Under the pieces are notes generated by a model that was not told the origin of the DNA, did not search any database, and worked only from the letters and a program-made list of their open reading frames with translations. From Micromonospora tulbaghiae (GTDB taxonomy: Bacteria > Actinomycetota > Actinomycetes > Mycobacteriales > Micromonosporaceae), in NCBI RefSeq assembly GCF_900091605.1, contig NZ_FMCQ01000001.1, forward strand, positions 372,001 to 436,000: a stretch of DNA of 64,000 nt. The letters run 5' to 3'. Positions 10,518-14,434 of this stretch are shown here, in pieces (the first letter of the stretch is position 1; every line of letters begins with the position of its first letter). The translations under genes were made by a program, and so were the position numbers.

Positions 10518-11777
10518 TCAGGCAGGGGCGCTTCTCAGGCAAAAGGCGTCGAGCAGGGGCCCTTCCTTCTCCTCGGCCGTGGGCCCGCGCGAGGTGAGCA
10601 CCACCGGCGCCCCCAGCGCCTCCGAGACGGTCGCCGCCCAGTCGCCCGGCGCCGCGTCCAGCACCGGCCGGGCGCGCAGCAGCCGCCGGGTGAGCGCGGC
10701 CTGCCGGTCCAGGTCACCGGCCGGGCCGGGGACGAGCCGGTCGGTGTCCTCGTACCGGCGGCAGATCCGCAGACCGGGACCGGCCAGGTCGAGATGGGTC
10801 AGCGCCAGCCCGTCCACGCCGCCCGCCACCTCCAGCGCGTACCGGTGGGCGACCGCGTCGAAGTGCCCGAACCGGAACCGGCCCTGCCAGGGATTCGCCG
10901 AGTTGTGCCGGTCGGTGAACGGCAGCGCCGCATCCTCGGTGACCAGCGGCCCGGGACCGTGCCGGGTGGTGGTCGTCCGCAGCACGCCGAGCCGCTGCGC
11001 GGTCCCGGCCATCCCCGCCTCGGCCAGCAGCGTCTCGGCGTTGGCGAACGTCGTGGTGCTCCACGTCGTGTACGGGTGGAAGCCGTGCCACTCGTCCAGC
11101 AGCACCCCCTGCGCGCCCTCGAACACGCAGGTGCCCTCGCGCAGCGCGCCCGCGAGCCAGGTCCGGTCGACGATCGCCACCCGGCGCGCGAAGGCCGCGT
11201 ACGCGGGCAGGCAGTCCTCCACCGGCGGCGCGTCCAGTGGTCCCAGCTCGGCGGTGAGCCGGTCGCGCAGCGCGGCCAGCCGGCGGCGCAGCACCGCCGG
11301 GCGGCGGCAGTCCGCCACCCGGGGTGCCTCGTCGGGGTGGGCGAGGCCGTACGCGACCGCCTCGCCCACCCCGAGCCCGCAGGAGCCGTGCCGGTCGGCT
11401 CCCCGGGCGATCTCCCGGGCGCGGTTGGCGGCCCGGTGGTACGGGGTGGCGAGCAGCGCCTCCCCGTCCACCGTCAGACGGTCGAGCGCGTCGGGCACGC
11501 CGACCGACGCGAGGTGGTCGGCCTCGGCGGCCAGCGCCAGCGGGTCCACCACCACGTGCCGCGCCAGGTGCGTCCGTACGCCCGGACGGAACGTCCCGGC
11601 ACCGAACTGCGCGAACGTGTGGTGCCTCCCGTCGCGCAGGACGACGTTGTGCGCCGCCTGCGCGCCCCCGTTGAACCGGACCACCGTGTGGACCTGCCGG
11701 GTGGCGCAGAGCAGGTCCACCACAGTGCCCTTGCCGGCGTCGCCGTAGCCGAGGTCGACCACCATCACGTGGTTCAC
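10518..11777 (-). CDS. Divergent adenylosuccinate synthetase paralogue with altered substrate motifs
   Basis: A 419-residue protein collinear with PurA over its whole length. The nucleotide loop is GYGDAGKG: the catalytic Asp13 is kept but the following Glu is Ala. The His41 region is AQAAHN, keeping His. The aspartate-binding loop GTTTGRERRCGWFD of true PurA is replaced by NPWQGRFRFGHFD, and the guanine-binding TKLD becomes THLD. The enzyme therefore probably performs a phosphoryl-activation/condensation on another substrate or with another nucleotide. The GTG start overlaps the stop of the VWA gene by four bases (GTGA), so it is the fourth gene of a coupled operon led by an NrtR-like Nudix regulator. 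It is not a redundant purA, since the real gene is at 413-1702. Confidence 0.85.
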   Translation of the reverse strand: MNHVMVVDLGYGDAGKGTVVDLLCATRQVHTVVRFNGGAQAAHNVVLRDGRHHTFAQFGAGTFRPGVRTHLARHVVVDPLALAAEADHLASVGVPDALDRLTVDGEALLATPYHRAANRAREIARGADRHGSCGLGVGEAVAYGLAHPDEAPRVADCRRPAVLRRRLAALRDRLTAELGPLDAPPVEDCLPAYAAFARRVAIVDRTWLAGALREGTCVFEGAQGVLLDEWHGFHPYTTWSTTTFANAETLLAEAGMAGTAQRLGVLRTTTTRHGPGPLVTEDAALPFTDRHNSANPWQGRFRFGHFDAVAHRYALEVAGGVDGLALTHLDLAGPGLRICRRYEDTDRLVPGPAGDLDRQAALTRRLLRARPVLDAAPGDWAATVSEALGAPVVLTSRGPTAEEKEGPLLDAFCLRSAPA

Positions 11778-12733
11778 AGCCGGGTGACCCCGCTTCCGCC
11801 GTCGGCCGGGCTGAACGGCAGCGTCGCCACCGCGCGCCGCCCCGAGCCGAGCCGGGCCAGCGCCTTCGACACGGTCCGGGTGGCGGCGGAGCCGGCCCGG
11901 TCCAGGTCGCGCAGCCCGGCGTCCAGGTCGATGGCCTGCTCGCCGAGGCCGACGGTGAGCGCGATCGTCTCGCAGACCGCGTCCAGGTCGTCCAGCTCGA
12001 CCGCGTTCTGCCCGAGCAGGCCGCGCCAGAAGTCGAGCACCTTGCGGTTGCCCGCGTAGTGGCTGCCGGCGGGCAGCAGGTAGTAGGTGTCCCAGCGCGC
12101 GGTCACCTCGTCGACGATCTGCCGGACCGGCACGTCCTCCCGCAGGTCGTCGCCGATCAGCCGGGTCACCTCCGCGGTCTTCACCGCCGGGTACGCCAGC
12201 TCGTCGCCGATGATGAACAGGTAGCCGCGCCGGCCGCGCTTGTCCCAGCTGTCGGTGGCCGTGTGCCGGGCCATGAAGTACAGCGCCAGCTCGTACGACT
12301 CCATCATCTGGCCGCCACCGCCGCCCTCCAGCACGATCCGGCCGAGGTCGTCGTCCATCCGGTTGTCGGACTCGAACTGCCCGACCTGCAACGGCACCCG
12401 GTCGCAGGTGGCGTCGCCGATCGCGCCGAACATGACCTGCGGATCCTTGGCGTACCCCTGGCGCAGCAGCAGGCCCAGCAGCTGCGGCAGCTTGCTCTGC
12501 AACACCCGGGGCACGTGCCCCATCGAGCCGGTGACGTCGAACAGCACGGCGATCGGCGTCGACTGCGGGTGCTCGGCGGAGTCGCGGCTCTCCCGCAGCG
12601 CGTCGCGCGGGTCGAGCGCCGGGTGCACCTTCCGTGCGCCGCTGTCGCTGTACGAGAACGCGCTCCTGCCGGTGCGGCGCCGGTAACGGTCGGCGGCGTC
12701 GTACACGTCGGTGGACCAGATTCCACTGCCCAT
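11774..12733 (-). CDS. VWA-like (MIDAS) domain protein
   Basis: A 319-residue cytosolic protein. A strand followed by LFDVTGSM (D66-x-T68-x-S70) is a metal-ion-dependent adhesion site of the von Willebrand A type, and a later GDELAYP segment is consistent with the rest of the fold. The N-terminus (TDVYDAADRYRRRTGRSAFSY type) and the C-terminal region with LDDLDAVCETIALTVGLG are peculiar to this family. No signal or membrane segment is seen, so it probably scaffolds an intracellular complex. ATG 12733 follows GGGAGG. It sits between the J-domain pseudokinase (10-base gap) and the PurA paralogue (4-base overlap). Confidence 0.8.
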   Translation of the reverse strand: MGSGIWSTDVYDAADRYRRRTGRSAFSYSDSGARKVHPALDPRDALRESRDSAEHPQSTPIAVLFDVTGSMGHVPRVLQSKLPQLLGLLLRQGYAKDPQVMFGAIGDATCDRVPLQVGQFESDNRMDDDLGRIVLEGGGGGQMMESYELALYFMARHTATDSWDKRGRRGYLFIIGDELAYPAVKTAEVTRLIGDDLREDVPVRQIVDEVTARWDTYYLLPAGSHYAGNRKVLDFWRGLLGQNAVELDDLDAVCETIALTVGLGEQAIDLDAGLRDLDRAGSAATRTVSKALARLGSGRRAVATLPFSPADGGSGVTRL

Positions 12734-13685: not shown

Positions 13686-14434
13686 CGCACCGTCTCCTCC
13701 CGGGCGGGGCGCAGCAGCGCCGGGTGCAGCAGCCGGGCGTCTCCGGCGCGGTAGAGCTTGGCCCGGGGGCCGCCGCGCGCGCCGCCGCGTTCGGTGCTGC
13801 CGCCGGTGCTCTCCACGAAGCCGGGCACCGAGAGCACCTTGCGGTGGAAGTTGCCGGCGTGCAGCGGGTGGCCCCAGACCGTCTCGTAGACCTCGCGCAG
13901 CTCGGTGATCGTGAACTCGGGGGCGAGGAACCGGGTGGCCAGCGGCGTGTACTCCAGCTTGGAGCGGGCGCGCTCCAAGCCGTCGTCGATGATCCGGCCG
14001 TGGTCGAAGGCGAGCTGCCGGCTGGTCAGCGCGGTGACGGGCAGCCAGATCGCCTCGTCGGCGTCGGTGTCGGCGACCGGCTCGGGCAGGTCGGGGGCGA
14101 ACGCCAGGTGCGCGACCGAGACCACCCGCATGCGCGGGTCGCGATCGGGCGCGCCGTAGCTGCCGAGCTGTTCCAGGTGCACTCGGCGCAGCCGCTCGCC
14201 GCCGAGGCCGGTCTCCTCGGCCAGCTCGCGCCGGGCACCGGTGGCCAGGTCCTCGTCCGGCTGGACGAAGCCGCCGGGCAGTGCCCAGTGCCCCGCGTAG
14301 GGCGGCGCGCCCCGGCGGATCAGCAGCAGGTGCAGCGCGCCGTCGCGGATGGTCAGCGCGACCACGTCGACGGTGACCGCGACCGCCGGGTAGTCCCGGG
14401 GGTCGTACCCGGCGAGGAAGTCCTGCTCGTTCAC
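13682..14434 (-). CDS. Nudix hydrolase with C-terminal winged helix (NrtR-like regulator)
   Basis: A 250-residue protein with an intact Nudix box, GGFVQPDEDLATGARREL then AEETGL, so hydrolase activity toward a nucleoside-diphosphate compound is possible. The C-terminal region (FTITELREVYETVWG, then NFHRKVLSVPGFVEST) is the winged-helix domain typical of NrtR-like regulators of NAD metabolism and of related operon-specific regulators. It starts at GTG 14434 as the first gene of the four-gene operon. Two copies of a direct repeat lie just upstream and are the likely operator. In known family members, binding of ADP-ribose or a related ligand relieves DNA binding; the ligand here is unknown. Confidence 0.88.
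   Translation of the reverse strand: MNEQDFLAGYDPRDYPAVAVTVDVVALTIRDGALHLLLIRRGAPPYAGHWALPGGFVQPDEDLATGARRELAEETGLGGERLRRVHLEQLGSYGAPDRDPRMRVVSVAHLAFAPDLPEPVADTDADEAIWLPVTALTSRQLAFDHGRIIDDGLERARSKLEYTPLATRFLAPEFTITELREVYETVWGHPLHAGNFHRKVLSVPGFVESTGGSTERGGARGGPRAKLYRAGDARLLHPALLRPAREETVR

Follow-up and report, generated by a model that had tools for sequence, protein, structure and literature searches.

In a 64,000-nucleotide stretch of the Micromonospora tulbaghiae genome (the window), a four-gene operon sets an altered paralogue of adenylosuccinate synthetase, here called PurA*, beside a VWA protein that begins with Met-Gly. We predict that PurA* modifies the VWA protein by joining a purine nucleotide to its N-terminal glycine, and that in bacteria a Nudix repressor likely controls the module; we give this reading a probability of about 40%. 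The module is very widespread, on bacterial chromosomes and phages, and we found no description of it in the literature searched, which was that of openly licensed papers (most subscription journals fall outside this scope). If the reading is true, a textbook purine enzyme has been turned into a protein-modifying enzyme, and protein-purine conjugation, first seen in anti-phage immunity, arose more than once, the second route using a different enzyme.

The quartet lies on the minus strand at 14434-10518 (Table 1), in the order Nudix/NrtR-like regulator, J-domain pseudokinase, VWA protein and PurA*. The coordinates agree with the junctions given in an initial annotation of this DNA (10 bases between the second and third genes, and 4-base overlaps at the other two junctions), and Pfam and profile evidence together with family-wide motifs agree with the four families it had named. 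The operon PurA is an extra paralogue, because a canonical PurA gene is present 9 kb from the operon, scoring 613.6 bits with the profile that gives the operon copy 207.3. Upstream, an inverted repeat is probably the terminator of the preceding gene and would insulate the operon.

Table 1. Positions of the operon genes and associated features in the window
Feature	Position	Strand	Remarks
Canonical PurA gene	425-1675	+	
PurA* (PurA-like)	11777-10518	-	419 aa, GTG start
VWA protein	12733-11774	-	319 aa
VWA codons 1-2 (Met-Gly)	12728..12733	-	Predicted modification site once Met is removed
J-domain pseudokinase	13685-12744	-	313 aa, GTG start
Nudix/NrtR-like regulator	14434-13682	-	250 aa, GTG start
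Candidate operator	14448..14479	.	Two tandem 16-bp repeats (14448-14463 and 14464-14479), CTCA-N3-TGAG palindrome in each
Probable terminator	14491..14517	-	Perfect 11-bp inverted repeat (arms 14491-14501, 14507-14517), T-run at end

The arrangement is not due to chance, since it recurs across bacteria and phages; the initial annotation had treated the four genes as one system, and this survived a check of co-occurrence in other genomes. The module occurs in actinobacteria, proteobacterial plasmids and large phages, the Micromonospora operon being one copy. Its core set is PurA* and VWA, plus the J-domain pseudokinase in most loci, to which bacteria add the Nudix/NrtR-type regulator (in nearly all fetched bacterial loci). 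The kinase and Nudix genes are less constant than PurA* and VWA, in viruses especially. A phylum-wide survey of 396 genomes, a lower bound because few candidates were scored per genome, gave at least five matches (this genome, two of the genus, one of the order and one 20-bit match), and other actinobacterial groups plainly carry the family too. VWA homologues number at least 8000 at E 0.001; among the matches listed, none of 120 carried a Pfam domain.

The pairing of PurA* with VWA is nearly obligate. A PurA* scan of viruses kept 80 loci, 78 of them new (41 outside the set fetched with VWA), and VWA was present in 75 of the 78. In the other three (L201, L207 and L211) the contig breaks off 990, 340 and 36 bases from the start of PurA*, on VWA's usual side. 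In Micromonospora, VWA was found in 105 of 151 genomes and PurA* (E<=1e-80) in 103; each of these carries VWA too, on one contig with PurA*, and the two profile matches are never more than 491 bases apart. The two apparent misses have PurA* split over two frames, a state seen in at least four of the 105. VWA and PurA* distance matrices correlate (r 0.76, 77 cluster representatives; none of 500 shuffles reached as high a value), which shows co-inheritance, not contact. The initial annotation had missed both this pairing and the almost invariant Met-Gly of the VWA protein.

PurA* keeps the PurA family profile (PF00709, Adenylsucc_synt, 208 bits; phrog_1211, 264 bits) but falls far below the PurA equivalog cut-offs (159.3 versus 402 bits for NF002223, 119.7 versus 395.55 for TIGR00184). 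In a census of 166 family members, whose counts, like all those given here, are inflated by related sequences, Asp13, Lys16 and His43 are each kept in 165, Gln223 in 163 and Asp330 in 160. We take Asp13, Lys16, His43 and Gln223 to be the equivalents of E. coli PurA Asp13, Lys16, His41 and Gln224, and the kept residues to represent the GTP P-loop, phosphoryl transfer and the guanine-contact Asp, by the roles of these residues in E. coli PurA. The differences from PurA lie in GTTGRGIGP and TTGRxRR, presumably the IMP/aspartate-site signatures of the canonical enzyme, which are absent; the family mostly has GSCGxGxGE and xQGxxR, and the Arg of GTTGRGIGP is not conserved. Other substitutions relative to canonical PurA are N to Q40 (162/166), V to H273 (163/166), T to S132 (155/166), T to C133 (147/166) and P to E139 (152/166); Gln298 is present in 160/166, in a loop whose alignment needs a gap of one residue. 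Positions of IMP contact in E. coli PurA are also changed. As judged from the alignments, the GTP and phosphoryl-transfer residues are kept and the IMP/aspartate pocket is rebuilt, so that the enzyme is indeed altered, as the initial annotation had it.

A phage-borne PurA paralogue is also known in PurZ of Z-genome phages, and an enzyme of that kind, serving 2-aminoadenine or some other DNA base, might be proposed, the more so as many cluster C mycobacteriophages have PurA* homologues named '2-aminooxy adenylosuccinate synthetase' in their RefSeq versions. We regard this as very improbable, and the name as doubtful. PurZ has Ser at the Asp13 position in all 147 phage sequences covered in PMC12884076, whereas PurA* keeps Asp, has an unrelated partner set and occurs in bacterial chromosomes too. 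Membership of PurZ was rejected, since Asp13 is kept and the NCBIfam model, whose cut-off is 300 bits, gives a score of 41.9.

The VWA protein has a predicted VWA fold with a MIDAS-like D66-x-T68-x-S70 (the DxTxS motif); no solved structure matched it in a search by sequence. Gly is residue 2 in all 166 scorable loci, with a start codon before it in 165, in 70 of 70 scorable loci of the PurA*-fetched set, and as MG in 120/120 among the database matches listed; one locus has Lys-Gly there, and L127 reads Ile-Gly. The N-termini in the module read MGSG, MGGS or MGGG. As a control, the commonest residue 2 at the family start has a frequency of 0.19 in PurA*, 0.33 in the kinase and 0.37 in the Nudix protein, although the kinase is also fairly uniform among the matches listed, mostly from Micromonospora (Arg in 96/120). 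In the predicted structure residues 1-7 are coil (pLDDT 82 for the block 1-10, 95-97 for 11-50) and the ordered core starts at residue 8, so the N-terminal tail is flexible by prediction.

Because of the near-obligate pairing and the near-invariant Met-Gly start, we predict that the VWA protein is the substrate of PurA*, a nucleotide acceptor, rather than a scaffold. The initial annotation had called it a MIDAS scaffold; the MIDAS-like motif stands, and the start and the pairing point away from the scaffold role. Some points count against tagging. Gly2 persists in three VWA loci in which PurA* was not found, namely L128 (whose 148,872-base record may be a fragment), L117 (a fragment, 21,517 bases long) and L075 (an 8.2-Mb genome, with a canonical-like PurA match only, 142 bits). 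There are also other uses for a glycine fixed at the N-terminus, namely in packing or as a non-covalent plug. It might occupy the PurA* amine site and regulate a chaperone or assembly complex, or be needed structurally, which would account for the pairing, the lost aspartate signature, the fixed VWA start and the persistence of Gly2 at those few loci. Such a plug would have no need of catalytic Asp13, His43 and Gln223, yet these are kept in 163-165 of 166 members, and we consider it unlikely.

Under the preferred reading PurA* would be a GTP-dependent protein-purine ligase. It would phosphorylate O6 of a purine nucleotide using GTP, as PurA does; removal of Met would expose the Gly2 amine of VWA, which would attack C6 in the place of aspartate, and the product would be an N6-linked nucleotide-protein conjugate on VWA. 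There is a parallel in systems of N-terminal 7-deazaguanine conjugation (NDG; Cap9/CD-NTase, QatB/QatC), where a repurposed purine-type biosynthesis enzyme likewise stands beside a partner with a conserved MG start and a flexible tail (by prediction in the PurA* module). According to PMC13279940, the partner protein in type IV CBASS starts with MGGS and receives a deazaguanine on its N-terminal glycine from Cap9; in qatABCD, for which deazaguanylation is proposed, QatB requires its MGTS start. In the PurA* module, however, the enzyme is of PurA fold and GTP type, not QueC (no Pfam match to QueC among the four operon proteins, E up to 10), the partner is a VWA protein, the reaction is predicted only, and phages also carry the genes. 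The VWA tail is also much shorter than those of many QatB proteins (30-90 residues), and whereas Cap10 binds the modified N-terminus in type IV CBASS, here there is a J-domain pseudokinase.

Alternatively PurA* could form a free modified purine nucleotide from some other small amine. VWA would then be required as a scaffold or as a metal-dependent cofactor, and the product would be what the Nudix regulator senses. This is the simplest departure from PurA. The entire GTP/phosphoryl machinery is retained, a Nudix-type sensor is present in nearly all bacterial loci fetched, and the near-obligate pairing suits a heteromeric enzyme as well. It leaves the start-anchored invariant glycine unexplained, and no dedicated downstream enzyme recurs beside the viral triads (148/269 near ORFs); we hold it possible but doubtful. 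Neighbour clustering by blastp gave no extra conserved phage partner, every family being limited to 4 or fewer of the 68 viral clusters. Pfam tallies, covering 148/269 near and 148/295 far candidate ORFs of 67 clusters (a PHROG tally covered the near set only), gave no recurrent fourth partner in either set; the commonest families in the 148 near ORFs were NUDIX (3) and Nampt (2).

The pseudokinase of the window has its J-domain HPD at residues 37-39 and Ala for the HRD Asp, and the family agrees with the initial annotation of a J-domain on a pseudokinase. HPD is kept in 77/78 bacterial aligned rows (one HTD) and 48/49 viral ones, counts that leave out 5 bacterial and 15 viral unaligned rows and in which a few proteins give two rows. 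The HRD Asp, which an active kinase should have, is Ala in 78/79 and Gly in 1/79 bacterial aligned rows and is retained in 1/60 viral ones (4 unaligned rows left out of each). The ATP-pocket Lys and Glu are mostly retained. A DnaJ Pfam match was obtained for 20 of 32 family members, the window's own protein not being among them. Viral loci lacking the kinase had no common substitute that we recognised except a Met-rich protein in L007-L010 (4/86). With PADLOC, the kinase (best match MkoA, 37 bits) and the Nudix protein (23 bits) were matched at the level of general fold only, and PurA* and VWA had no match at E up to 1.

If VWA is tagged, the J-domain-linked pseudokinase is the likely reader of the tag. 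With less confidence, we suggest that it binds tagged VWA and that, through its HPD, it brings Hsp70 (DnaK) to whatever is bound at the VWA MIDAS. A tentative extension, which we think somewhat improbable as a whole, is a chaperone switch charged by a nucleotide and common to bacteria and large phages: the ligase derived from PurA would purinylate the N-terminal glycine of the VWA adaptor in a GTP-dependent step, the pseudokinase would recognise the purine through its ATP-like pocket, and Hsp70 would join the adaptor's client. Protein-purine conjugation would then have been invented without QueC and be used by phages and hosts alike in their conflict.

The regulator passes the Pfam cut-offs for NUDIX (78.8 bits, cut-off 21.1) and NrtR_WHD (46.6 bits, cut-off 27), has a complete Nudix box as read from its sequence, and is the sole NrtR_WHD match found in the genome; it failed the equivalog for ADP-ribose-responsive repressors (NF050029, 138.7 bits, cut-off 400). 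The direct repeats noted earlier at 14455-14481 are real and lie close by; the two copies (16 nt each) are 81% alike, and the tandem pattern is found at a single place in the whole genome, even allowing 3 mismatches. Of 85 loci checked, 54 have one or more CTCA-N3-TGAG palindromes close to where the Nudix gene begins, whereas the density of the palindrome within those same 85 loci predicts about 1.1. The Nudix-winged-helix protein is likely a local repressor of its own operon, and would probably repress it until a nucleotide ligand builds up. A standard NAD regulon was rejected, as the genome's only NrtR_WHD protein found and its only tandem-operator place are both at the operon. The protein resembles NrtR regulators in its domains and in being encoded by the first gene after the presumed operator, but the operon has no NAD gene, and the repeats do not match the mycobacterial NrtR operator, given as GTTTTCGA-N7-TCGAAAAC in PMC6800001. 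ADP-ribose conflict systems centred on ARG also have a Nudix-HTH one-component regulator and in some cases a VWA protein, read as a peptide-binding chaperone in PMC9503650, whose text does not mention PurA or adenylosuccinate. The operon differs in having PurA* and the J-pseudokinase, and ADP-ribosylglycohydrolase (none by Pfam) and phosphatase are absent from its four genes.

The nucleotide theme that the initial annotation gave the operon we judge right; its nucleotide-derived signal and the tie to NAD fared less well. A triad that repairs or senses NAD-derived nucleotides, in NAD/ADP-ribose stress or phage counter-defence, is improbable in our estimation: no core protein matches an NAD enzyme family, the operator is unlike mycobacterial NrtR sites, and Nampt-like (nicotinamide phosphoribosyltransferase-like) genes are rare, in 3/86 viral loci (L111, L119 and L132; at most 2 kb from the triad in two of them). 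Besides the NrtR-type regulator and these genes, such a role would fit an NMN adenylyltransferase-Nudix-like gene at L119, judged from sequence, and genes annotated NADAR and TROVE near the module of Vibrio phage L009.

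The operon lies on the minus strand of the window (14434 to 10518) and its four genes are closely packed: the first and last pairs each overlap by 4 bases, and 10 bases separate the middle pair. The canonical PurA gene is 9 kb away from it, and a perfect 11-bp inverted repeat with a terminal T-run lies between the operon and the upstream gene. Past the PurA* (altered PurA paralogue) stop, after 24 bases, begins a VTT/DedA membrane protein gene; such a gene is near the operon in 16 loci, every one from a single bacterial cluster.

The four-gene set is real and widespread. Scans of genomes gave at least 554 relatives and scans of viral contigs 446; the 80 best from each scan were retained. 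Among the genome loci listed, M. maritima has the nearest VWA protein (96% identical), and among the database matches listed, proteins named M. aurantiaca reach 98%, so that a Micromonospora is the most likely host. PHROG profiles matched all four operon proteins. A tblastn search of 50,697 phage records found PurA* in 226, a minority of them resembling the normal PurA that other phages carry, and found VWA in 206. Most of these records are mycobacteriophages (189 for PurA*, 188 for VWA), followed by Rhizobium and Vibrio phages. Of 72,556 plasmid records, 21 carry VWA, among them Rhodococcus and Agrobacterium plasmids.

Through VWA, records found with it or its neighbours we fetched 84 bacterial or plasmid loci and 86 viral loci. 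The former have PurA* (83) and the pseudokinase (79) on the VWA strand, and a Nudix gene in 82 (81 same strand, one divergent). The viral loci have PurA* in 83, the kinase in 60 and the Nudix gene in 4; in 4 a Met-rich protein replaces the kinase. Proteins of this kind, of ~200–260 aa at the usual pseudokinase place, occur in Rhizobium and Vibrio phages and in a gut phage. Because these loci were fetched by VWA or its neighbours, a reverse scan by PurA* was run. It kept 80 viral loci, two already in the first set, leaving 78 new; all 78 have the motif R[HY]GxG and 75 have VWA; in the other three, the distance between the PurA* start and the end of the contig is 36 to 990 bases. Of these 78 PurA*-fetched loci, 41 are absent from the first set. 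Of 151 Micromonospora genomes, 105 have VWA, 104 the kinase and 103 PurA*; in all 103, VWA is on the same contig, at most 491 bases away. Two VWA genomes apparently without PurA* carry the gene in pieces that lie in different frames, and at least two of the 103 show the same split; the kinase alone was lost in one genome. In four Micromonospora genomes (L255, L256, L258, L259) PurA* is broken across two frames, through either sequencing error or decay, and VWA is intact with an MGSG start. Searches of the complete L128 record (148.9 kb, possibly itself a fragment) and of the L117 record (a fragment of 21.5 kb) gave no PurA*, and the L075 genome gave a canonical-like match only; in L138 it is elsewhere on the same contig. 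By their co-occurrence, PurA* and VWA are therefore the module core, and the kinase and regulator are more dispensable.

Residues were surveyed in 166 PurA* family sequences, with roles that we take to be those of the E. coli enzyme. Phosphoryl-transfer and P-loop residues are kept (Asp13, Lys16 and His43 in 165 each, Gln223 in 163), as is the guanine-contact Asp330 (160). The surroundings of the IMP and aspartate sites are rebuilt (N to Gln40, TT to Ser132-Cys133, P to Glu139, V to His273), the Arg of GTTGRGIGP is not conserved, and the aspartate loop, which aligns with a one-residue gap, has Gln298. PurA* thus has the look of a working GTP-dependent enzyme that no longer takes free aspartate as its amine substrate.

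In canonical PurA, GTP phosphorylates O6 of IMP and the aspartate amine then displaces the phosphate. PurA* would retain the first half of this reaction; its aspartate signature is lost, and its near-obligate partner VWA has an invariant, start-anchored glycine, whose amine would be freed by Met removal. Since the phosphorylation half appears kept, the aspartate signature is gone and VWA presents a glycine, the simplest reading is that the VWA N-terminus may be the amine used in place of aspartate; any role of the pseudokinase is putative. The initial annotation had proposed a nucleotide-derived signal or modified nucleotide system; this is partly supported, protein–purine conjugation being a better fit to the anatomy than a free signal would be.

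PMC13279940 and PMC11996544 describe how Cap9 of type IV CBASS, of a purine-analogue biosynthesis family, acts on a partner that starts MGGS, linking a deazaguanine to its N-terminal glycine; PMC13279940 adds that in qatABCD the MGTS start of QatB is required. The Cap9 chemistry is a precedent for the putative PurA*–VWA conjugation. No described system that we found has the same core proteins, although N-terminal deazaguanine conjugation is a functioning analogue of the proposed chemistry. In RefSeq records of cluster C mycobacteriophages and of a Rhizobium phage, and in one Vibrio phage record, PurA* is called '2-aminooxy adenylosuccinate synthetase', which seems to be a corrupted PurZ-type name; GenBank versions have 'PurA-like'. 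PurA* lacks the PurZ active-site Ser.

Upstream of the Nudix gene in the window are tandem 16-bp repeats with CTCA-N3-TGAG, a pattern at this single place in the host genome, where no NrtR_WHD protein other than the operon regulator was found. In 54 of 85 loci the Nudix gene is preceded by one or more such palindromes (~1.1 expected); it is absent there in plasmid loci L004–L006 and all three viral loci tested. The repeats are a candidate operator for the Nudix protein, and differ from the mycobacterial NrtR site published in PMC6800001.

A link of the module to NAD, also raised initially, is suggestive only. Nampt-like genes occur in viral loci L111, L119 and L132, near PurA*, VWA and kinase in the first two; L119 also has a gene that, by its sequence, is NMN adenylyltransferase-Nudix-like. 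Vibrio phage L009 has genes annotated NADAR and TROVE close to the module, and the Pfam families seen most often in 148 near-neighbour proteins were NUDIX (3) and Nampt (2). The L119 run interleaves the module with NAD salvage.

Features of the operon and of individual loci
Locus	Position	Strand	Feature	Basis
Window	13682..14434	-	Nudix/NrtR-type winged-helix protein	
Window	12744..13685	-	J-domain pseudokinase	
Window	11774..12733	-	VWA protein	
Window	10518..11777	-	PurA paralogue (PurA*)	
Window	425-1675		Canonical PurA	
Window	9876-10493	-	VTT/DedA membrane protein	
L119 (416-kb viral contig)	9243-15608		Single run: Nudix-NrtR, VWA, NMN adenylyltransferase-Nudix-like, Nampt, PurA*, kinase	
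L011 (mycobacteriophage Cane17)	10059-11876		VWA gene	
L006 (Allorhizobium plasmid)	11324-18732		Module, then AAA ATPase, DUF5682, DUF4132, VWA genes	
L007	7675-8466		Met-rich protein	
L008	8231-8950		Met-rich protein	
L010	6391-6999		Met-rich protein	
L106	2818-3990		RtcB-like RNA ligase	sequence only
L119	1941-3062		RtcB-like RNA ligase	sequence only
L145	16889-18040		RtcB-like RNA ligase	sequence only
L126	7204-9912		RtcB-like RNA ligase	sequence only

The Cane17 VWA gene is a single open frame of 605 codons against the usual ~340, the extra length being an in-frame insert, perhaps an HNH intein; in other cluster C phages the VWA match is broken in two, some of them annotated 'HNH endonuclease'. 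The L006 module is preceded, further off, by T6SS VgrG and phospholipase genes, in a conflict-rich setting. Three viral loci of one cluster have RtcB-like frames at 6–8 kb from VWA, and in L126 one adjoins it.
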